A stretch of 64,000 nucleotides of DNA, taken from the NCBI RefSeq assembly GCF_000485795.1, contig NZ_AXZL01000068.1:1-64000 (forward strand), given 5' to 3'. The position numbers were made by a program, and so were the translations under genes. This DNA comes from Shewanella decolorationis S12. Its GTDB lineage: Bacteria; Pseudomonadota; Gammaproteobacteria; Enterobacterales; Shewanellaceae. This document shows, one piece after another, positions 14,318 to 26,535 of this stretch. The notes under the pieces were generated by a model that was not told where the DNA came from, ran no database searches, and worked only from the letters and a program-made list of their open reading frames with translations. The stretch's first letter is position 1, and each line of letters starts with the position of its first letter.

Positions 14318-16695
14318 AGGGGTTCTCCTTCTTGGAATACGTTTGAATAATGGCCTAATGCGCTGGTGCTGACAGAATGTGGCGCTAGCGTTTTCGCTGT
14401 AGTCTTATCTGCAATCTTATCCGCAACGGGAGTGGCTGACTGAGCTGCCAATTGAGGCATAAGCGGCGCAAGGGAGAGTGGCACTCTATGGCTGATAAGT
14501 TGGGCTAAGCATTTGAGTAAACTGGTGATCGTATCGCTGCCCTTGGCATTGCATGCCATGGCTAATATCGGTTGTTCCTGTGTTTGAACGCCATCGGCGC
14601 CCAACTCTAGTTGGCGGCCGATTTTATCGATAAGTGTGCTGGTTTGCCTATCGGCGCCCACCTCAACAAATAAGCGCGCACCTTGGTTATAGGCGGTGTT
14701 AATCAGCGCGGTAAAATTAAGCGGCGCGCAAAAGGTGTCGGCAATACTCTTGGCAATGCTTTGGCTGTCGATGCTGACTGTACTTTGCTGCGCTGCGCTA
14801 ATGAAACGCACCTGAGTCTCGCAGGCATTCGCCTTTATGCCCAAGGTATAAAACCCTTGGATAGCACTGTGCTGTGACTGCGAGGGCTGAGTATGCATGG
14901 CGGTGACTTTATTGCTGGCAATGCCACGCTTATTCAGCCTTTTAAGGAGTTGTAAGCAGCTTGCTTCGCAGCCCGCGAGAATACAGGTATCACCCTGTTC
15001 AATCGCCAGATAAACCCGTGGAAAATCAGTCAGCAGGGCATTAATTTCGGCGCGAGAGGCGCGCACTAAAAAGCTGTTCCACACTAGCGGTGCATCTTCA
15101 TTCAATTGCCAATCGCGGCGCACCGCAAGCAGTGGGCCTGAAATCTCCTGATTGAAGATGGCACTGTTTTGGGTGGCGTGAATCAGGGCATGTGGCGTTT
15201 GCCAGATATCTAAACTTGCCCACATGGCCGCTTCACCCATGGAATAGCCCAGAGCGAGTTGCGGTTGGATATTAAAGACTCGAGTCAACAGCCGACTAAA
15301 AAGGTAACTGGCGCCAACACCGCTAATCGCAAGCTGGCTTAAGCTCATGTCTGCCGCGTCTTTTACATCAACAGCACTTTTGGCGTATGCAGCGCTTTGG
15401 TAAATCGCCTCGGCCTGCAGCATGGCGGGTAAATCCCCTTCGCGTTCAAGCTCGCGATAAAGCTCAGGGAAATAGCCATGTAAGTCGCTGAACATATTCG
15501 GGTAAACCGTACCGACGCCAGGATAGACAAAGGTTAAGCCTTTATCACCAAGGGGCGAGGCCGCAAAATAACTGCCCGCCGGGGTCTTAAAGACTAGATT
15601 GGTCGCTGGCGTTTGGGCTGGAGTTGGCGCAGGAGTCTGTTGCGTCTTTTCAATATAAGCGCGCATCGCCTTAGCTTCTTGCATTAACTCCTCAAGGGAG
15701 TCCGCCATCAGTACTAAAGCCAATTCATCCTTTGCTTGATAGCGCTTAAACCAATCACGGCCTTGGCTGCAAAGCCAATCTGTATCGGGAAAGTTTGCCG
15801 ATAAATCTAATGAATCAATCAGTTGTGATAACTGTACCGTTAAAGACTCAAGTGTATTGCCGCTGATGGGAATAAACAGTCTGTTGGCATTGAGCAACGG
15901 CTGAGGGATAAGCCGAGTGCCTTGGGTCAAGATAAGGCTTTGGGCGGTGCTCGCTTGAGGGGCTTTACCAAAGAGATTTAGGCTTAACACCCTTGCCTGA
16001 TGGGGCTTTGTAAACCAATAGCCTAGCTCCGCGGTTTTTACGGGCTTTTCAGCGTGCGGTTTAGCGTGCTGTTCAGCCAGTTGTGCTGCATCAGTCGCAT
16101 CAAGCATTGGGGCAATACCTTTGAGGCTGCGATGACTTAATGCCTCAACCGCTTGAGCTAATACATTCAACTGGCTGGCAAGATTGTTTGCCTGCGCGTA
16201 GCAATTAACCGCCTGAGTACAATCGCGTTTCGCCAAGGTTAAAGCGCTGTTTAAACAGCGCTCGACTGTATTTGTTTCTTCAGCTGTTTCAGCTTGGATT
16301 TGCGCTAATGCTGAAATATAAGCCTCGGCATGCAGATGTAACTGCGCTGCCATCAGCCCATCGAGCAGATACAGGCTACGGACTTGCTGCTGATATTCAA
16401 AGCGAATTTCAACGAGTTGTTTTTGCGCAATATGGGCGAGTTGCTCTGTGATCAAGGCGACCAGTGTTGGCTCATCAGATGGCTCATTAATTAGTGGCTT
16501 ATCTTCCACATTGAGCTGAATTCGACAAGCCATCAACTGCTGCAGCTTGCTGACATTGGTTTGTGCATTGTTAAGCGCACTCTGTATCCACTCATCACCA
16601 AGCCATACTGCTATTCGCAGTGGCTTGGTATTGGGATGTGGAGTGTTTAGTGCCGCATTGCTTAATGCGGCATTTGCGCTTGGGTAGAGTGTCAC
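14314..16695 (-). CDS. pfaB: Polyunsaturated fatty acid synthase subunit PfaB (acyltransferase)
   Basis: 793 residues. The C-terminal half is a malonyl/acyl transferase-like domain with the nucleophile motif GYSMGEA (Ser485) and an earlier TFVYPGVG stretch. The N-terminal half is a degenerate, low-similarity region without KS catalytic residues, as is usual for PfaB. The subunit is reported in the family to influence whether EPA or DHA is made. The GTG start overlaps the pfaA stop by four bases (GTGA), with a GAGG ribosome site inside pfaA. It ends in a four-base overlap with pfaC. Confidence 0.94.
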   Translation of the reverse strand: MTLYPSANAALSNAALNTPHPNTKPLRIAVWLGDEWIQSALNNAQTNVSKLQQLMACRIQLNVEDKPLINEPSDEPTLVALITEQLAHIAQKQLVEIRFEYQQQVRSLYLLDGLMAAQLHLHAEAYISALAQIQAETAEETNTVERCLNSALTLAKRDCTQAVNCYAQANNLASQLNVLAQAVEALSHRSLKGIAPMLDATDAAQLAEQHAKPHAEKPVKTAELGYWFTKPHQARVLSLNLFGKAPQASTAQSLILTQGTRLIPQPLLNANRLFIPISGNTLESLTVQLSQLIDSLDLSANFPDTDWLCSQGRDWFKRYQAKDELALVLMADSLEELMQEAKAMRAYIEKTQQTPAPTPAQTPATNLVFKTPAGSYFAASPLGDKGLTFVYPGVGTVYPNMFSDLHGYFPELYRELEREGDLPAMLQAEAIYQSAAYAKSAVDVKDAADMSLSQLAISGVGASYLFSRLLTRVFNIQPQLALGYSMGEAAMWASLDIWQTPHALIHATQNSAIFNQEISGPLLAVRRDWQLNEDAPLVWNSFLVRASRAEINALLTDFPRVYLAIEQGDTCILAGCEASCLQLLKRLNKRGIASNKVTAMHTQPSQSQHSAIQGFYTLGIKANACETQVRFISAAQQSTVSIDSQSIAKSIADTFCAPLNFTALINTAYNQGARLFVEVGADRQTSTLIDKIGRQLELGADGVQTQEQPILAMACNAKGSDTITSLLKCLAQLISHRVPLSLAPLMPQLAAQSATPVADKIADKTTAKTLAPHSVSTSALGHYSNVFQEGEPL

Positions 16696-19600
16696 TTAAC
16701 ACTTACCTCGGCCGTGCTTTGGACTGCTGCCTGCACTATCGTTTGTTGCTGAGGTTTATTGGCCAAAAACGCTTGGTTAAGCGTCTTGCTGATCGTGACT
16801 TTTGCTCGCTTCATCTCGCAGCTTAGACGGCCATCCTGGTGGTAGAGGGCAATATTGGCTTCAAGTGAACGGGACGAATGCTTGAGCACATCCAGCACCA
16901 ATACCGCCTTCTCGCCAAAACCTAAGGGCGAATAGGACACAAACTCGCCAATGGCACTGGGTAAGCTTGCCGCTTGATATTTAAGGCGTGCCCACACGAG
17001 CATGGCCTGCAATAACAGATCTTCGGCAAAGGGTTGTGTGCCTTTATCCTCAAGATTTGGCGCAAACTCGCCACAGTCATCTAAGTCCACCGCTGGCAGT
17101 GCTACCTTAGCGATAAGCTGTTGGTCATCAAAGGCGAGTACTTCGCTTATGCCTTGCAGTCTTGGGCCATGGAACAGTGTGCCATCGCTGTAAAGCGATT
17201 CTCGGTTCGCGATAGCGGGTTGCTGCGTTATCTCCTGCATTAGAGAATGCAACTCGCCAACCTCCAAACCCTGTGCGTCTGGCATATCATCCGTCTGTGC
17301 CACTAACACCGCCTGATACTGCGGGCGACCTTCAAAGCTGATCAGCGCGGCTAACGCCTCAGTCGATTGCTGTGTAGCGTCGGCAAGCGGCGTCAGCATC
17401 AATTCGAGCTCAATAGGCGCATTGCGTGCAAGCAGCGCCTCATCGAAGATAATCCCCTTGAGCAGTCGATAATCGCTGACACTCACCGCCTTACCTAAAT
17501 GGGCCTTGGCAGCCTCACGCATCCAATCGATGGCGCACACCGTTGGCAACACCGCATGACCATTAATGCAATGATCCTCAATAAAACTCATGCGTTTAGG
17601 GTCGAGGCTGCGCATGATGCGAATACTCTGCGACAACGTTTGGGCCATAGGCTGCGGATCTAACGCCGTGGTTAGATCCGCTTCAGGCTTTTTTGCTGAT
17701 GCAGCTTCAACAGTATTAGCGGTATTGCCCTGCATATCGGTTCCGATCAACAGCTGCGCCCCTGTATCACTCAATAATTGGCTGGCAAATAACTCGGCAC
17801 CCGCTTTGAGTGGAATGACATAAACTCCACGGTCGATAAACATTTTCTTCAGTGCTGGATTGACCATGCCGCCATCCCAAGGACCCCAATCGAAGCTCAT
17901 CACCTTGGCTTGTGGCAATTGCTGCGCAAGTTGCAGCGCAGCCTTATTGAGAATGTCATTAGACATGGCGTAGTCGCTCTGGCCGGCATTGCCGTAAAAA
18001 CCCGCCGCCGAAGAGAACAGGGCGATGAGCGTTAACTGGCTAAGATCCAGTGCCGATAGCAGATTGTTAAGTCCGGTCACCTTAGTGCCATAAACCCGCT
18101 CAAGTTCGCTTAAGGTTTTGTCTTGAATATGTTTATCGGCAAGTACACCCGCGCCGTGGATAATCCCCGTGATGGGCGATAGGGCGCTGATAGGTGCAAT
18201 AATGCTGGCAATGGCGGCAGGATCGTTAACATCCAGGCTTAAGTATTCGGCGCTGGCGCCAAAAGCTTCAAAGGCTTGCAAGGCATGGCTGATTTCAAGG
18301 CTGCTTTGTACTGGCCAAACTAAGGCATCCACTTGTTTTGGTGTGGGTTTATTACCCAGGCTTTGCAGATGTTCGATGGCAGCGGCTTTGAGTTCGTTGC
18401 GATTTTTACCCAGAGCCCAAGCGGGTATCCCCTGATGGGCGCTACGACCCACGAGGATAAAATGTGCCTTGCAGCGTTTCGCTAAACTTAAGGCGCACTC
18501 GAAGGTAACACCCTTAGCGCCGCCTGTGACGAGGATTTTGTCCGCCTTGCTAAGGGCGGCGGGTGGATGACGAAGTGCTGCGGTGCCCGCGACTAAGGTG
18601 GTGCGCTCAAGTTCGCTATCAATAGCAACTTCGACTGGCGCATCTTGAAGGTAGAATTCCTGCACCACCGCATTGGCAACCGTTTTAGCGTCCAAGTTTG
18701 GCGCGATATCCAGTGCGCGGCAGACCACTCCCGGCCACTCGTGATTTAAGGTTTTAGTGAGTCCAGAGAGCGCCGCTTGGTTGAGTTCACTCTGGCTAAT
18801 AACAGCGCCTGCCGACTCGTCCATGCCGATATAGCCAAAGCCGCCGTCGATACGGCTGACGGTGACAAAGCGGCAGTGGTCGCGCTCAGTTAACAGCGGT
18901 TGTAAGTACTTGGCGAACAAGAAGGCTTGCTCGACCGAGGCTTTGGCTTCGTCTGCCAGCACTAAGCCTGCACCTTTATCGGCAACGGACTTATGCTGTG
19001 GCTGCAGATGGATAAAGCCAGCGATTTGGCCAAGCGCTTCAATCTGATTGATGACCTCACAAATGCTTTCATCATCAATCGCCTCCAGCGTGAAGCTGGC
19101 AATATGGCTATCGAGTGGCGATGCGCTGGTCACAACCGTTTTGGGTGAGCGTACAACCGCAACCTTAACCCCTTGGGCGTGAAGCTTTTCGGCAATCACC
19201 CCCGCGTTGTGGCCATCGTCGCCAATAACGACGTAACAGTTTGCCGTCAGTTGAACATCGCTAGTTGCTATGATGCGCGCTAACTCAGCCGCCGCTGGCA
19301 ACTTTTTTAGCATCACCTCACTATGGGGCGGCAGGTCGATGGTGTCCTCGACGGTTTCTGCAATTGCCTCTTGAATTGGCGCAGCATGGTTTTGCTGTTG
19401 CGCCTCACTTGATGATTGCGAACCAGCATAGAGGGCGACAATTTCACCCAAGGTGCGACACTCGGCTAAATCTTCAGGGCCCAATTCTGGCAGGTTCGGT
19501 AGTTGGTCTTGTACTGTGCCTAAAATTTCCACACGCTTAATGGAGTCGATACCAAGGTCGGCTTCCATATCCATGCTTAGCTCAAGCATTTCAACGGGAT

Positions 19601-22600
19601 AGCCAGTCTTATCGGCTACTACAGCCATCATAGTGCGTTCAATCTCGCCATCGGATACGGCTGTGCTTACAGCTACCGCCGAGCTTGTGGCTACTGCACT
19701 TTGTATTGCATGGCTCACTGTGGCCGCAGCTGTTACGGCTGTTGATACTACAGGAGTCGCTTGGCTAAAGAGCGCCACAATTTCCCCTAGGGTGCGGCAC
19801 TCGGCTAGATCTTCTGGGCTGAGTTCTGGCAAGTTTGGCAGTTGGTCTTGTACTGTGCCTAGAATTTCCACGCGCTTAATGGAATCGATCCCAAGGTCGG
19901 CTTCCATATCCATGCTAAGTTCCAGCATTTCAACGGGATAGCCAGTCTTGTCGGCTACGACCGCCATCATAGTGCGTTCAATCTCATCATTTGAAACCGC
20001 CGCACTTGCAGCAACTGCACTTTGTGTCGCATGGCTAACAGTGGCGGCAGCTGTTACGGCTGTTGATACTAGAGGAATTGCTTGGCTAAAGAGCGCCACA
20101 ATTTCCCCTAGGGTGCGACACTCGGCGAGATCTTCTGGGCTGAGTTCTGGCAAGTTTGGCAGTTGGTCTTGTACTGTGCCTAGAATTTCCACGCGCTTAA
20201 TAGAATCGATCCCAAGGTCGGCCTCCATATCCATGCTGAGTTCCAGCATTTCAACGGGATAGCCGGTCTTATCGGCCACCACCGCCATCATAGTACGTTC
20301 AATTTCATCATTAGAAACCGCCGCACTAGCAGCGACTACACTTTGTATTGCAGGGCTAACTGTGGCCGCAGCTGTTACGGCTGTTGATACTACAGGAATT
20401 GCTTGGCTAAATAGCGCCACAATTTCCCCTAGGGTGCGGCACTCGGCGAGATCTTCTGGACTCAATTCTGGCAGGTTGGGTAACTCGTCTTGTACCGTGC
20501 CTAAAATTTCCACGCGTTTAATAGAATCGATACCAAGGTCGGCTTCCATATCCATGCTTAGCTCAAGCATCTCAACGGGATAACCAGTTTTATCGGCAAC
20601 CACTGCAAGCATGGCGGTCTCGATTTGTTGCACGACTGACTTCTCGGAAAGCGCGCTAGTTACTGTTGTCACAGTTTGCACTTGCGGCTGTGCGACTTGA
20701 GGTTGCTGAATTTGGGGCTCATTCACAGGCGGAATAGTCGCTTTTGGCTCTGCGACTAACGCTTGAATCACGGGCGACTGTGCTGGAGCGACAGGCGTTG
20801 CCACAGCTACCGCCACTGGTGCAGCGACTTGAATGGGGGCTTGAACCTGAGGCGCTGGCATTTGGCCGAGTAGAGCTAATGCCGCTTGGCTGCTGCTGGT
20901 CTGCAATTGCATAAATTCAGCATGGCTCTTTAGGGTTTGTGCCTGATGCTGGTGGAACAGCTCCATCGAGCGTTGCAGGCTCTCTGGAATGGCGATGCCA
21001 AGGCTTGCCATTTTGGCTTGCTCCGCCATCAGGGCACTGACGGTATCGCCGTATTGCTGCGGGATCGCTAAAAATTGTTGATGTAATTGCGCGGCCTGGG
21101 TTTGGGCGGCAAAAAAGGCGCTCAGGGCATCTTGAGTCGCCTGTCCAGCGGTAAAGTTGGTTGGCTGTGCAGGCGTTTGCTGTTGAATAGTATTGCTATT
21201 TTGTGCCACTGGCTTTTCCACTTCGACAACCTTTTCTAGAATTTTTTCGACAATCACGGGTTTTTCAACGACTTTTTCAACCACTTTCTCAACGAGGCGA
21301 TCCACATACTGCACTTGGCTGGCAATTTTGCCCGATTGCAGCGAATCGACCATTTTGCGGCGGGTACTAGGACTGATGTAGTTGGTTGCATTGAGCTTGA
21401 TATTCATCGCCGAAGGCGTTGCTGGCGCAATCAATTCGGCTTGATAAGGGTCTATTTCACCCAGTTTCACCCCAGCAACCGCCAGTTGCACCGCAGCGCT
21501 GCGCAGTTGGCTGTCGGAGTCGGCTTTAGGATTTGGGTTAATGCTGATAAGGCAAAGCTCATTTAACTGCTCGGCGAGGGTATTTTCTGTCAACTTTTGC
21601 AGAATGTTTTTCGGACCGAACTCGACAAACACCCGTGCACCAGCGGCATACATGGCTTCTAGCTGCTTGCTAAAGTGCACCGATTGCAACATATGATCTT
21701 TAAAGGCCGCTTTGATGGCGTTGGCATCGGTGGAATGCAGCTCTCCTGTGCCATTGGCATACAGGGCAATCTTTGGCGTGTTGAACTGAGCCTTATCAAT
21801 GGCTTCGCTAAAGGGCTTTTGCGCATGGGCAACCAATGGCGTGTGGAAGGCGCCGGAAACGGGCAGGGCAATCGCCTTAAAGCCTAAATCACCAATGGCC
21901 TTAGCGGCCTGTTGTGTCGCTGTGGTAGTGCCTGCAATCACCAGCTGAGTGGGGGAGTTGTAGTTGGCAATCTTGACGCCGTCAAACTGCGCCAAGCAAT
22001 CGTTGATAGCCTCAATATCCTGTTTTTGCTTAAGAATAACGGCATACATGACGCCAGCATCACGACTTGAGCTGGCATCTTGTGGTGACTGCGCCATTGC
22101 CAGTCCACGTTCAAAGGCAAGCTTGATGTAGTCATCCATTGAGATAACCCCTGCGGCGCACAGAGCCGAGAGTTCACCAAAACTATGGCCTGCGAGCATA
22201 TCTGGGGTGAAACCCGCCTGAGTAAACAGTGCGTATTGCGCCATAGAGAGCGCCCCAATGGCGCTTTGGGCGTAGAGGGTATTGGTTAATGCCGTTTCCT
22301 GCGCTTTTATCGACTCATCATCAAAGGCGGGAATCGGGTACAACACACTTGAAAGCACAGGCTTACCATGGGTACTAAACACTTTATCGCTGGCGTGGAT
22401 ATGGCGGCGAAGCTCGGGGAAGTTGTTGGCAATTTCCAGTCCCATATTCAGGTACTGCGAGCCTTGGCCTGCAAATAAGGCCGCGACCTTGGTGTTATCC
22501 TTGACCAGTGCCTGGGCGCGGAAACTTATCCCTGAGGGTAACTGCCAGCTCTCGGCGCTATTGGATTCTAGCTGCGCTATTGCTTGGGTTAACAGAGTCT

Positions 22601-24290
22601 GTAACTGGGCATAATCCTTGGCGATAAAACCAAGACGGGCTGATTGCGGGGGGAGTTCACGCAGGGCGTAGGATTTTGCAAAGGCAACAAAATGCGCCTG
22701 AGAAAGCTCAGCCTTGGCGGCGGTTGCTTGCTGCAGCGCGGTTTTTAACTCGCCCAGCAGCGCGGTTTTGTCGGCGGCGGTAAACAGCCAGCTTTGTGCC
22801 ACGCTGCGTTGGCGATAGGCGTCATCGCGCGCGTATTCTGGGCGGTATTCTTCGAGCACTAAATGGAAGTTAGTGCCCCCAAAACCGAAGGAGCTGATCC
22901 CTGCGCGGCGCGGCGTATCGTCACTGCGTTGGATCCAAGGGCGTGCCTCGGTATTGAGATAAAAGGGCGAGCGGGCAATGTTTAATTTAGGATTAGGCTG
23001 ACTGACGTTAATCGTTGGTGGCAAGACTTTATGGTGCAGTGCCAATGCTGCCTTAATCACACCCGCCGTGCCCGCGGTGGACTTAGTATGACCGACCTGA
23101 GATTTAACTGAACCTAAAGCGATATGCTGTAACTGCCCATTATCCTTAGAGAATACTGAGGTTAAGCCATTGAATTCGGCCACATCGCCTGCGGCTGTGC
23201 CTGTGCCGTGGGCCTCAATCAAGCCAACGGTGTGCGGCGCAAAGCCTGCGTCATCATAGGCGCGCTCTAATGCCTTGGCTTGGCCTTCGGGACGCGGTGC
23301 ATAAATGCTCTTAAATTTACCGTCCGATGAGGCGCCAACGCCTTTGATTACCGCATAGATACGGTCGCCATCGCGCTCGGCATCGTCGAGGCGTTTTAAG
23401 GCGACCATGCCGATGCCTTCGCCAATCATCATGCCCTTAGAGTCGATATCGAAGGGTTGGATTTGCTCGTTGGTGGTAAAGGCGGGTGTCTTTGAAAAAC
23501 TCATATACATGTACGGCGAGTTGTCGGTACAGACACCGCCGGTGATCATCATGTCGCTGCGACCTTCGGTCAGTTCGGTCAGCGCCATACGCATGGCGGC
23601 AAGCGAACCAGCGCAGGCGGCATCGACGACGCAGTTCATTCCGCCTAAATCGAAACGGTTGGCGATGCGTCCGGCAATCACGTTACCGAGGGAGCCGGGG
23701 AAAGAGTTTTCTTCCCAGTGGACATATTGATCTTGGAATTTTTTGATCAGCAGCTCGCTATCTTCATCGCTCAGGCCACTGCTTTTAAATACTTTTTTCA
23801 GCACCGGATATTGCAGGCGCGCATTGAGGCTATGGCTTAGTTTTTGACCGCCGCCAATCCCTAGGGTGATGCCGATGCGGTCACGGTCGTAGTCGTCTGG
23901 CAGATTGACATCCTGTAGGACTTCCTTGGCGACGACCAATGAGAGTAATTGTGAACTATCGGTGAGTTCCAAAATATTGGGTGGCAGACCAAACTCCATC
24001 GGATTGAAGTCAACCTCTGGCATAAACCCGCCGCGTTTGCAGTAGCTCTTATCGGCCTTGGACTTGTCCGCATCATAATAGTCATCAATCGACCAGTGGG
24101 ATTCGGGTACGTCGGTAATGGCATCAATCTTGTCGCAAATTAAATCCCAAAACTTATTTAAGTAGCGGGAGTTAGCAAAGATACTCGCCATGCCAACGAT
24201 GGCAATTGGCATATCTTTTAAGCGTTTATTCAGTCTCTTATCGGCTTTTTCATTGGTTGATAATTGAGGCTGTGAAGGGGTATGGCTCAT
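16692..24290 (-). CDS. pfaA: Polyunsaturated fatty acid synthase subunit PfaA (KS-MAT-4xACP-KR-DH')
   Basis: 2532 residues. Ketosynthase about 28-480 (Cys226 in VDAACAGS, IEAHGTGT, GHTKSTAG); malonyl-CoA acyltransferase about 600-900 (AGQGSQ, GHSFGEL with Ser703); a charged VEK-repeat linker near 1000-1030; four tandem acyl carrier domains with GIDSIKR serines at 1256, 1363, 1470 and 1583; ketoreductase about 1905-2140 (LVTGGAKGV, Tyr2107 in YAMSN); and a C-terminal dehydratase-like region about 2225-2500. It initiates and elongates EPA chains; the ACP serines are substrates for PfaE. The ATG overlaps the pfaR stop (ATGA), with GGAG 7 bases upstream. Other characterised clusters carry five or six ACPs, so four is at the low end. 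Confidence 0.96.
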   Translation of the reverse strand: MSHTPSQPQLSTNEKADKRLNKRLKDMPIAIVGMASIFANSRYLNKFWDLICDKIDAITDVPESHWSIDDYYDADKSKADKSYCKRGGFMPEVDFNPMEFGLPPNILELTDSSQLLSLVVAKEVLQDVNLPDDYDRDRIGITLGIGGGQKLSHSLNARLQYPVLKKVFKSSGLSDEDSELLIKKFQDQYVHWEENSFPGSLGNVIAGRIANRFDLGGMNCVVDAACAGSLAAMRMALTELTEGRSDMMITGGVCTDNSPYMYMSFSKTPAFTTNEQIQPFDIDSKGMMIGEGIGMVALKRLDDAERDGDRIYAVIKGVGASSDGKFKSIYAPRPEGQAKALERAYDDAGFAPHTVGLIEAHGTGTAAGDVAEFNGLTSVFSKDNGQLQHIALGSVKSQVGHTKSTAGTAGVIKAALALHHKVLPPTINVSQPNPKLNIARSPFYLNTEARPWIQRSDDTPRRAGISSFGFGGTNFHLVLEEYRPEYARDDAYRQRSVAQSWLFTAADKTALLGELKTALQQATAAKAELSQAHFVAFAKSYALRELPPQSARLGFIAKDYAQLQTLLTQAIAQLESNSAESWQLPSGISFRAQALVKDNTKVAALFAGQGSQYLNMGLEIANNFPELRRHIHASDKVFSTHGKPVLSSVLYPIPAFDDESIKAQETALTNTLYAQSAIGALSMAQYALFTQAGFTPDMLAGHSFGELSALCAAGVISMDDYIKLAFERGLAMAQSPQDASSSRDAGVMYAVILKQKQDIEAINDCLAQFDGVKIANYNSPTQLVIAGTTTATQQAAKAIGDLGFKAIALPVSGAFHTPLVAHAQKPFSEAIDKAQFNTPKIALYANGTGELHSTDANAIKAAFKDHMLQSVHFSKQLEAMYAAGARVFVEFGPKNILQKLTENTLAEQLNELCLISINPNPKADSDSQLRSAAVQLAVAGVKLGEIDPYQAELIAPATPSAMNIKLNATNYISPSTRRKMVDSLQSGKIASQVQYVDRLVEKVVEKVVEKPVIVEKILEKVVEVEKPVAQNSNTIQQQTPAQPTNFTAGQATQDALSAFFAAQTQAAQLHQQFLAIPQQYGDTVSALMAEQAKMASLGIAIPESLQRSMELFHQHQAQTLKSHAEFMQLQTSSSQAALALLGQMPAPQVQAPIQVAAPVAVAVATPVAPAQSPVIQALVAEPKATIPPVNEPQIQQPQVAQPQVQTVTTVTSALSEKSVVQQIETAMLAVVADKTGYPVEMLELSMDMEADLGIDSIKRVEILGTVQDELPNLPELSPEDLAECRTLGEIVALFSQAIPVVSTAVTAAATVSPAIQSVVAASAAVSNDEIERTMMAVVADKTGYPVEMLELSMDMEADLGIDSIKRVEILGTVQDQLPNLPELSPEDLAECRTLGEIVALFSQAIPLVSTAVTAAATVSHATQSAVAASAAVSNDEIERTMMAVVADKTGYPVEMLELSMDMEADLGIDSIKRVEILGTVQDQLPNLPELSPEDLAECRTLGEIVALFSQATPVVSTAVTAAATVSHAIQSAVATSSAVAVSTAVSDGEIERTMMAVVADKTGYPVEMLELSMDMEADLGIDSIKRVEILGTVQDQLPNLPELGPEDLAECRTLGEIVALYAGSQSSSEAQQQNHAAPIQEAIAETVEDTIDLPPHSEVMLKKLPAAAELARIIATSDVQLTANCYVVIGDDGHNAGVIAEKLHAQGVKVAVVRSPKTVVTSASPLDSHIASFTLEAIDDESICEVINQIEALGQIAGFIHLQPQHKSVADKGAGLVLADEAKASVEQAFLFAKYLQPLLTERDHCRFVTVSRIDGGFGYIGMDESAGAVISQSELNQAALSGLTKTLNHEWPGVVCRALDIAPNLDAKTVANAVVQEFYLQDAPVEVAIDSELERTTLVAGTAALRHPPAALSKADKILVTGGAKGVTFECALSLAKRCKAHFILVGRSAHQGIPAWALGKNRNELKAAAIEHLQSLGNKPTPKQVDALVWPVQSSLEISHALQAFEAFGASAEYLSLDVNDPAAIASIIAPISALSPITGIIHGAGVLADKHIQDKTLSELERVYGTKVTGLNNLLSALDLSQLTLIALFSSAAGFYGNAGQSDYAMSNDILNKAALQLAQQLPQAKVMSFDWGPWDGGMVNPALKKMFIDRGVYVIPLKAGAELFASQLLSDTGAQLLIGTDMQGNTANTVEAASAKKPEADLTTALDPQPMAQTLSQSIRIMRSLDPKRMSFIEDHCINGHAVLPTVCAIDWMREAAKAHLGKAVSVSDYRLLKGIIFDEALLARNAPIELELMLTPLADATQQSTEALAALISFEGRPQYQAVLVAQTDDMPDAQGLEVGELHSLMQEITQQPAIANRESLYSDGTLFHGPRLQGISEVLAFDDQQLIAKVALPAVDLDDCGEFAPNLEDKGTQPFAEDLLLQAMLVWARLKYQAASLPSAIGEFVSYSPLGFGEKAVLVLDVLKHSSRSLEANIALYHQDGRLSCEMKRAKVTISKTLNQAFLANKPQQQTIVQAAVQSTAEVSVK
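19430..20640 (-). repeat. Four tandem ACP-coding repeats in pfaA
   Basis: The ACP blocks repeat every 107, 107 and 113 codons (321-339 bp) and are close to identical at the DNA level, including the Ala/Val/Thr-rich linkers between copies 1-2, 2-3 and 3-4. Differences are mostly third-position changes. Such repeats can expand or contract by recombination. Confidence 0.9.
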
Positions 24291-25156
24291 AACGAGTCTC
24301 CACTGGCAAAGCGTTTGGCCGTTGCCTTATTAAGGGATTTAGCGATGGCTTTTGGGGTTTGTACGCCAGGAAAGCGGGCTAAAAAAGTGTGGTAGTTGCG
24401 TACCAGCAATTTACGCAGATGAAACGGCCCATCCTTCAGCACATAGGCGATGTAGCGATTGGCCGCTTGGGTGTTACTGTCTTGATAAATATCGATATAA
24501 ATCCAATCTGCCTTGCTATCTATGCCAAGGAGTACCGATTTAGGTTCGGCCTCGGTCAATTGCGGCGGCAGAGTGAGTGACACCACTTGTACTACGGTGT
24601 CTCCATCGGTACTTGGCAGGGCAAGCGCCTTGGCCAAGGTTTCGGAGTTGACCGTGTAGGTCTGAACATCGCTGCCTTGGCTGATAGGCAATTGATTAAA
24701 ATACTGTTTAGGCACAAGCTCTTGATCAAACTCATCGAGGCGCGAAACCCCATAACGCTTAAGGCAGCGGGCCAACCCCGAGCGGGACACATTGGGATTG
24801 ATAAAGGTTTGCGTTGCTTTAAGTAGTCTATCGAGCGGCAGTTTGAGCTGATATCTCAGTCCCACCACGACGTATTCTTCCATCGGCGTGAGGGTGGTAT
24901 TGAGGTGATGCGGGGTGTTCGGGCTGTCGTTCACAGACTCGCGCTTGCGCCATTTACGCACGGTCGCTTCGGTAATATTTAAAATTTTGGCAAGCTGACT
25001 CACACTTAATTCAGATTGCTGAATAAAGTGTCGCATCTCCGGCGTGGTGGTGGCATTGCGGTGCCTAGCCATTTTGGAGGCGGATTTGTGCTCAGGGCTT
25101 GGCTTATCAGCCTGAGCATTATCCGCGGCTTGAGTACCCACTTTTCGAGAACTCAT
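24287..25156 (-). CDS. pfaR: Regulator PfaR, helix-turn-helix protein with a transposase-like layout
   Basis: 289 residues. An N-terminal helix-turn-helix (about 40-75, SVSQLAKILNITEATVRKWR) is followed by a second DNA-binding-like stretch (90-150, with SRSGLARCLKRYGV), arranged as in IS481-type transposases. The C-terminal part (about 205-280) resembles the opening of an RNase H-like core (LGIDSKADWIYIDIY) but ends before the remaining DDE residues. In Shewanella pfaR is considered the activator of the pfa genes. It is the first gene of the operon, overlapping pfaA by four bases, and divergent from pfaE. The transposase origin is inference. Confidence 0.85.
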   Translation of the reverse strand: MSSRKVGTQAADNAQADKPSPEHKSASKMARHRNATTTPEMRHFIQQSELSVSQLAKILNITEATVRKWRKRESVNDSPNTPHHLNTTLTPMEEYVVVGLRYQLKLPLDRLLKATQTFINPNVSRSGLARCLKRYGVSRLDEFDQELVPKQYFNQLPISQGSDVQTYTVNSETLAKALALPSTDGDTVVQVVSLTLPPQLTEAEPKSVLLGIDSKADWIYIDIYQDSNTQAANRYIAYVLKDGPFHLRKLLVRNYHTFLARFPGVQTPKAIAKSLNKATAKRFASGDSL

Positions 25157-25536
25157 CTTGTTAGTGCTGTCCCATCTTTATTATTTTCATCCTACATAAT
25201 CTATCGGGACTGCTTAAACTTGCCTGCAAAAGCGGAGTGTGGACTCATGCTTAATCTAGGCTTAAAACCCGTGAGCTATGTGTTTTGTTACGCACAATGG
25301 TGATGCAGATTACCTGAGGTTTCGGCTCGATACAATCATATGGGACTTGAAATGATTTTTTAATGTTCAAATGATTCTGTTCAAGGGCAATAAATTCCTG
25401 TTCAGCACGGGACTTAAGCTTAAAGAGTCATTTAAATTCATAGAATTAGAAACAAAAATAAGATACTGCTCGTCAGGCGAGTAGAACTAAGTAGAATAGT
25501 ACAGCCGCTAAACTCAAGGATTGTTGGGATAAATGA
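25157..25536. promoter_or_regulatory. Divergent control region between pfaR and pfaE
   Basis: 380 bases without a gene; it must carry the promoters for both directions. Three direct TGTTCA copies occur at 25364, 25378 and 25399 (the first two extend to TGTTCAA). A TAGAAT hexamer at about 25493-25498 is a plausible -10 for pfaE. Toward pfaR, a GATTATG stretch near 25196 may be the -10, with no good -35. No palindrome stands out. Confidence 0.45.
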
Positions 25537-26535
25537 ATGAATATTGAGCTTTTTTTTATTCCATTAACCGAAATGGATGTGACCAGCACGAATGTGTGTA
25601 TGGCGCTCTTGAGTGAGGACGAGCGCGCAAAAGTGGCGCGTTACCGGGCGCCCAAGGCACAGATGAACGGTTTATTGGTGCGAGCGGCGCTGCGCTGCGT
25701 CTTATCTCAAGGACTACAATCTCGCGGTGGGGCCTCATCTTGCTCGCCCCAACGACAGATTGCGCCCCAAGATTGGTGTTTTGAGTATGGGAAAAAGGGC
25801 AAGCCTAGCCTCTGTCATAAGCAGTTTCTGAGCACTGGCATTGAGTTTAACTTAAGCCACAGTGGCGACTGGTTGTTGATTGCCTTGGCGCAAGATGATA
25901 ACAAGGGAGAAACCGCTAACACAGCGCTGCCCCGTTTAGGCTTGGGGGTGGATATAGAGCGTTCCCGCGCCAGCACTCATATTTACCCGATCCTGAATCA
26001 TTATTTTTCCCCGATTGAAGCCGAAAGCTTATTAGCCCTTGAAGGTGAAGATGCACAGCGGCAGCGCTTTTTTGACCTTTGGGCACTTAAGGAATCCTAC
26101 ATCAAGGCAACGGGTTTGGGCTTAGCACAGTCGCTGAAATCCTTTGCCTTTGACTTAGCACCAAACAGTTTGCTGGCGGTTGATGATGGCGTGCAGCAAG
26201 CTGCCGAACCCCGTAACAGTGTCGAACTTAAGCAGCAAGGGAACTTTGCTTCACCGAGCCAAGCTATGCTCAGTTCGTATCTTCAACTCCCGTCGCGTAT
26301 TCCACTTTATTCCAATATTAAGTTGCTGATTGAACCTGAAACTGCACAGGATGCCACAAGCTCCCATGCCCAACATTGGCAGAGTTACTTTGGCCGACTT
26401 GATGAGGAATATCGTTTTGGACTCAGTTTAGTGTTTGGTGATAGCTTAGTGCAGGATGACAGCTTGTCGAAGGTGACTATTTCGATGCAACTGACCAGTA
26501 TCACTGCATTACTGGCGGCGTGCTCGGCTATCTAG
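25537..26535 (+). CDS. pfaE: 4'-phosphopantetheinyl transferase PfaE
   Basis: 332 residues of the Sfp/AcpT superfamily. Magnesium and CoA motifs are visible: LGVDIERSRA near 150 and FFDLWALKESYIKATG near 185. It would convert the four PfaA ACP domains to their active holo form. The C-terminal ~110 residues extend beyond the core fold, as in other PfaE proteins. The start ATG has only a weak upstream site; a second ATG four bases earlier is out of frame. Transcribed away from pfaR. Confidence 0.93.
   Translation: MNIELFFIPLTEMDVTSTNVCMALLSEDERAKVARYRAPKAQMNGLLVRAALRCVLSQGLQSRGGASSCSPQRQIAPQDWCFEYGKKGKPSLCHKQFLSTGIEFNLSHSGDWLLIALAQDDNKGETANTALPRLGLGVDIERSRASTHIYPILNHYFSPIEAESLLALEGEDAQRQRFFDLWALKESYIKATGLGLAQSLKSFAFDLAPNSLLAVDDGVQQAAEPRNSVELKQQGNFASPSQAMLSSYLQLPSRIPLYSNIKLLIEPETAQDATSSHAQHWQSYFGRLDEEYRFGLSLVFGDSLVQDDSLSKVTISMQLTSITALLAACSAI

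Follow-up and report, generated by a model that had tools for sequence, protein, structure and literature searches.

PfaR of the pfa locus in Shewanella decolorationis: a domesticated IS481 transposase with transposon-end-like sites upstream of its gene

Transcription factors that descend from transposases, such as the Pax proteins with their paired domain and FHY3/FAR1, are well known in eukaryotes, whereas few bacterial cases are understood to the level of the operator. Here, we describe PfaR, a protein of 289 amino acids encoded at 24287-25156 on the minus strand (as are all features of this gene and its upstream region given below) of a 64,000-nucleotide stretch of the Shewanella decolorationis S12 genome (contig NZ_AXZL01000068.1, positions 1 to 64,000; henceforth the window). 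Its gene precedes pfaA, which encodes a polyunsaturated fatty acid synthase. As in Pax, FHY3/FAR1 and the TnpB-derived regulator TldR (PMC13418256), a transposon DNA-binding protein appears to have been kept as a regulator after its enzyme activity was lost. Unlike these, PfaR comes from a bacterial DDE transposase of the IS481 kind and is tied to an operon for biosynthesis, while TldR is RNA-guided.

PfaR itself has been described before. In the available parts of the respective sources, it is a positive transcription regulator of the pfa genes (Wei et al. 2023, AEM, as cited in PMC12016545) and an ‘inactive transposase’, modelled on MuA and lacking conserved catalytic residues (Wan et al. 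2016, PMC4744452). The inactive-transposase idea is therefore not new as such, and the suggestion of an earlier note on this sequence, that a transposase was recruited as a pathway activator, gains support from the activator role attributed to Wei et al. Both studies concern the same protein family, and the portions of text at hand name no insertion sequence (IS) family, no match of a site to transposon ends and no sister lineage. Our literature search likewise found neither IS481 nor a transposon-end operator named for PfaR, which is weak evidence of novelty as most subscription papers lay outside its coverage.

PfaR is a domesticated IS481 transposase that has lost catalysis, a conclusion that fits the phylogeny, the loss of catalytic residues, the low ratio of nonsynonymous to synonymous substitution rates (dN/dS) and the single-copy synteny alike; judging from sequence, it was probably captured and kept as an end-binding regulator of the pfa genes. 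The likeness to IS481-type transposases that the earlier note had pointed out was borne out by a profile search, in which the IS481 transposase model NF033577 was the single strong NCBIfam match (E = 4.2e-21) and IS481 the only strong family. The match takes in nearly all of the folded part of PfaR, joining residues 43-261 to profile positions 7-203 of 284, and its score of 75.7 bits lies below the curated cut-off of 224, short of full-length membership; PfaR is homologous to IS481 transposases but does not count functionally as one of the family. The profile gives the same kind of result with orthologues from other genera. Shared descent is evident from phmmer comparisons with two intact transposases (L108 and L114; E = 2e-37 and 1e-40) and from the tree, in which PfaR forms one clade (support 100/99). 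PfaR of a third lineage besides Shewanella and the Colwellia-like loci (family f12) nests within Shewanella PfaR, which suggests transfer of the locus. Nine of ten aligned intact transposases are about 50% identical to PfaR in the DNA-binding helix-turn-helix (HTH) region (46-55 of 103 residues) and about 25% identical in the core (14-20 of 69), the more divergent L154 agreeing at 30 of 92 and 18 of 69 positions, respectively. One could suppose instead that PfaR is an ordinary HTH regulator whose transposase likeness arose by convergence or does not extend beyond the HTH, as its Pfam matches are generic HTH hits only, all weak, and its IS481 score stays under the cut-off. We regard this as highly improbable, since the profile match spans both DNA-binding domains and the core, identity in the DNA-binding region is about 50% and half an RNase H core appears in both the structure model and the fold search.

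The layout proposed in the earlier note, an HTH and a second DNA-binding stretch with the beginning of an RNase H-like core after them, was confirmed by an AlphaFold2 model (mean pLDDT 73.8, pTM 0.57) and by fold search. The model contains two helical DNA-binding units: the HTH (residues 39-70; 24947-25042), preceded by the subgroup hallmark HxNATTTP, and a second helical domain (residues 91-134; 24755-24886). An insertion of about 45 residues (around residues 140-186; 24599-24739), predicted to form a beta hairpin and a helix, separates them from a catalytically dead half of an RNase H-like core (residues 187-256; 24389-24598), with RNase H-fold strands at residues 190-195, 207-213 and 218-224 and a helix at 228-242. 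The insertion has no counterpart in the aligned transposases and might be the part through which PfaR contacts RNA polymerase or forms multimers. IS481 transposases (NF033577) have in common with PfaR the HTH, the second DNA-binding domain and the start of the core; in the closest intact elements, about 50% of the DNA-binding region is shared, as is the end sequence. PfaR differs from them in the loss of all three catalytic residues, the insertion, the truncation, its single copy, the lack of flanking inverted repeats and its score below the family cut-off.

The best structural match, over residues 37-262, was to IstA of IS21 (8b4h, 8q4d; Z 6.7 and 5.9), which is an active and longer transposase of about 15% sequence identity. 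Pax paired domains and Tc3 matched the DNA-binding half, and the integrase cores of human T-cell leukaemia virus and human immunodeficiency virus matched residues ~183-262 (Z about 5-5.5, root-mean-square deviation 2-4). The RNase H-like similarity on which the transposase idea had been made to depend is therefore present as a fold remnant, though with modest values, and we treat these matches as support only; a sequence search of PDB chains with PfaR gave no match.

Loss of catalysis was read from an alignment of PfaRs with ten intact transposases of the nearest IS481 subgroup, all of which carry the D, D and E of the catalytic triad. The first catalytic position (D1) falls on V192 (24581-24583) and the second (D2) on R253 (24398-24400), while the E region is absent. 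Neither D is retained in any PfaR aligned: others have V/A/E, M/L or Y/K/R/N at D1 and R/K/E/N/G/A at D2, and where the E region would be, two rows carry an unrelated C-terminal tail. The motif GIDSKADWIY (24497-24526), which the earlier note had assigned to the opening part of an RNase H-like core, is the second core strand and not the strand bearing D1; it aligns with the non-catalytic ‘VAIDRATRWVY’ of the transposases, and its D has no catalytic role. The statement that PfaR ends before the remaining catalytic residues holds for E, the only part deleted, but the protein extends beyond the D2 position. A hand alignment had placed D1 at ‘YTVNSETL’ (D to N) and was rejected in favour of the alignment with intact transposases.

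The gene is under purifying selection, with dN/dS values of 0.02-0.14 among PfaR pairs from Shewanella and other lineages. It lies directly upstream of pfaA (16692-24290, minus strand; TIGR02813 match above cut-off), its stop overlapping the pfaA start by 4 nt in the sequence ATGA (24287-24290), and the two genes look like one operon. Among 117 Shewanella genomes, 109 encode PfaR and 109 encode PfaA above cut-off, the same 8 lacking both, and at the level of the order PfaR accompanies pfaA in families f1, f4, f6 (one genus), f11, f12 and f16. The view of PfaR as the fixed leader gene of the pfa operon is correct for Shewanella (109 of 109 pfaA-positive genomes) and for several other genera, but not for the pfaA-bearing genera f2/g4 and f21/g23, in which direct inspection upstream of pfaA revealed no PfaR. 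Single genomes of f6/g88 and f9/g72, whose PfaA matches are weak, lack it too. We infer that g13 is Colwellia, f21 Vibrionaceae and g4 Moritella; so read, the lack of PfaR in g4 fits the remark, in the available part of Wan et al. (2016, PMC4744452), that M. marina has none. Lost catalysis, purifying selection and a fixed locus together mark PfaR as a domesticated transposase. That it is a decaying pseudogene, present by chance, could be argued from its being shorter than IS481 transposases and devoid of catalytic residues, yet the open frame and the dN/dS values already contradict this, the strict co-occurrence with pfaA and the conserved upstream sites speak against it as well, and we give it practically no chance.

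Three further observations concern the distribution of these genes. Complete pfaA loci without PfaR have other genes upstream (G117, G142, G164, G183, G200 and others in f2/g4; G179, G225, G378 and others in f21/g23). Four Shewanella genomes (G018, G056, G065 and G088) have a second PfaA-like locus (e.g. G088:C11, G018:C34) and a single PfaR. Finally, G059:C85:138-317 holds a second, degraded PfaR-like sequence, a fragment of 37% identity interrupted by three stops.

The second line of evidence comes from the ends of intact elements. Intact insertion sequences of the IS481 subgroup nearest to PfaR end in TGTnnGGTCCCnnnnGATT. One intact relative, defined from two copies in genome G130, is 1070 bp long, with the ends TGTTGGGTCCCTGATGATTG and TGTCAGGTCCCGGACGATTG and a 6-bp target duplication, GTTACT; further intact elements end alike, several of them with target duplications of 6 bp, and this end core is shared by elements found later in organisms labelled Opitutus, Devosia, Nitrococcus, Paraglaciecola and others. 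This core, GTnnCnnnnGATTGT, occurs upstream of pfaR on the same strand in Shewanella, in Colwellia-like loci and in the third lineage. In the window, pfaR is separated by 380 bp from a divergent phosphopantetheinyl-transferase-like gene in the list of open reading frames (25537-26535, plus strand), which by position and content is probably pfaE. The gap holds two transposon-end-like sites: a proximal one at 25198-25210, 42 nt ahead of the pfaR ATG (plus strand AATCTATCGGGAC, minus strand GTCCCGATAGATT), and a distal one at 25330-25346 (GTCCCATATGATTGTAT), which pattern search, phylogenetic footprint and weight matrix all support and whose 3′ end is a putative -35 box, TTGTAT (25330-25335). Written for the other strand, the strict core is AATCnnnnGGGAC. 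Of its 14 copies in the 4.84-Mb genome, 12 lie inside long reading frames, and the only two intergenic ones (25198-25210 and 25334-25346) are both located between pfaR and pfaE.

Across Shewanella, 63 of 65 distinct upstream regions contain a strict same-strand site, and none of the 65 has a site on the opposite strand or for the reversed pattern. A strict AATCnnnnGGGAC search upstream of Colwellia-like pfaR genes returned nothing; motif counting found the variant GTATCGGGTGATTGT at the expected place there, close to GTCCCGGGTGATTC, the end sequence of one intact element. For the third lineage (L076-L079), GTTCCGGCA[GC][AG]TTGT proved the better site, a first candidate at about -490 having been dropped for its resemblance to coding sequence. 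A looser pattern, GTnnCnnnn[GC][AG]TTGT (background 0.01 per 400 nt), is found upstream of pfaR in 60 of 60 Shewanella with the anchor, 4 of 4 f12 and 19 of 20 Colwellia-like loci, the twentieth (L096) having a looser-pattern site further upstream; ten 5-kb regions upstream of pfaA in PfaR-less genomes had no such site. These counts come from related, non-independent genomes and so show conservation; the stronger argument is the match to independently defined transposon ends. A weight matrix built from IS ends alone ranks the pfaR sites first, with p values of 0.0003-0.03 in nine of ten regions. From this match, it seems likely that PfaR still binds transposon-end-like DNA, now used as an operator. 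The TGT-tip positions are not conserved (0 of 101 strict Shewanella sites have a TGT tip), and pfaR is not bounded by TGT-starting inverted repeats with a target duplication; a right end would find no room, as the 3′ end of the gene overlaps pfaA.

The distal site adjoins what may be the pfaR promoter. At Shewanella loci, as at the Colwellia-like ones, the site merges into TTGTRT, beyond which come 17 bp of spacer and TAATCT/TAGTCT (Shewanella) or TATATT (Colwellia-like); in the window, the putative -10 box, TAATCT, lies at 25307-25312, its conserved spacing of 17 bp from TTGTAT having emerged from the phylogenetic footprint. Such a site next to the -35 box resembles those of class II activators. 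We propose the following scenario. The transposase of one IS481 subgroup would have been captured once at a pfa locus and thereafter passed on together with the pfa genes, by inheritance and by transfer, losing catalysis (D1, D2 and E) and keeping its bipartite DNA-binding region. PfaR would retain recognition of the inner part of the terminal inverted repeat (GTCCCnnnnGATT), at sites lacking the TGT cleavage tip; its predicted target is GTCCCnnnnGATTGT, with GTCCC/GATT as the key letters. Bound next to the -35 box, it might help RNA polymerase to start the pfaR-pfaABCD transcript in a class II-like manner, including self-activation, and the second site near the start codon, present in most Shewanella, might serve tuning or looping. 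PfaR could also repress its own promoter by covering the -35 box and activate pfa elsewhere or indirectly, as many transposases repress themselves at their ends, the site overlaps the putative -35 box and the proximal site falls in the leader region. The operon-like 4-nt overlap with pfaA and the reported positive role (Wei et al. 2023, in what is visible through PMC12016545) make this rather unlikely.

Several points weigh against PfaR as a captured, end-binding activator. The site of one region (L099) is not significant with the weight matrix (p = 0.16), the Shewanella -10 sequence, TAATCT, is poor and was missed by a consensus promoter scan, which gave no call, and the second Shewanella site lies downstream of the putative start, which is unusual for an activator. 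The fold matches, too, are modest, with Z reaching 6.7 and Foldseek E 0.007 at best. In addition, the core match of ~9-11 bp is too short to tell whether a site is the relic of an end or of later origin. The sites may accordingly have appeared after domestication, favoured by the inherited DNA-binding domain, and be no relics at all. Besides the short core, this alternative can draw on the two sites in Shewanella, at most one of which could be the original end, on distances that differ among genera and on intact elements in which site and promoter are not fused. Against it stand the single-site Colwellia-like loci, in which 102-178 nt (102-146 in most) separate the same-strand site from the conserved TTP codon downstream of it, compared with 110-122 nt in the intact elements measured. 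We consider a later origin of the sites a real possibility, if one appreciably below an even chance.

The capture of an IS481 transposase may not have been confined to pfa. Degenerate IS481-derived proteins of ~265-310 aa adjoin an operon for phosphotransferase system (PTS) EIIC, Asparaginase_2, M17 peptidase, EIIB and EIIA in Enterobacteriaceae, Pasteurellaceae and Vibrionaceae (about 70 loci: L083, L085-L091, L201-L278). An asparaginase motif is found nearby in 70 of 71 non-transposase loci and an EIIC motif in the remaining one. These relatives have lost the catalytic residues and form one clade (96/93) beside PfaR (92/91), a placement that carries a long-branch warning; they are likely a second transposase-derived regulator. 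No clear transposon-end-like site was found upstream of them (looser pattern in 10 of 40 on one strand and 2 of 40 on the other), and their conserved upstream motif, GTGA-N6-TCAC, looks like a site for the cAMP receptor protein.

Taken furthest, an IS481 element may have been converted in place into a regulatory unit under its own control, its transposase becoming PfaR and its left end the omega-3 operator-promoter, with the same subgroup reused, or a PfaR sister redeployed, as regulator of the PTS/asparaginase operon across Enterobacterales; to this combined proposal we assign nearly, though not quite, an even chance. Should the pfa operator indeed be a transposon end, it would offer a complete route, open to testing, by which a mobile element turned into a gene switch, explain the origin of the control of bacterial eicosapentaenoic and docosahexaenoic acid synthesis, and supply an exact operator sequence with which omega-3 production could be tuned.

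Two minor observations remain. A lone degenerate IS481-like protein (L084:5612-6451, minus strand; E = 2.5e-14) is encoded in a type VI secretion cluster, beside a Ser/Thr kinase and TssK/VasE. In the window, PfaA (16692-24290) contains four tandem, nearly identical acyl-carrier repeats (LGIDSIKRVEILGTVQD).

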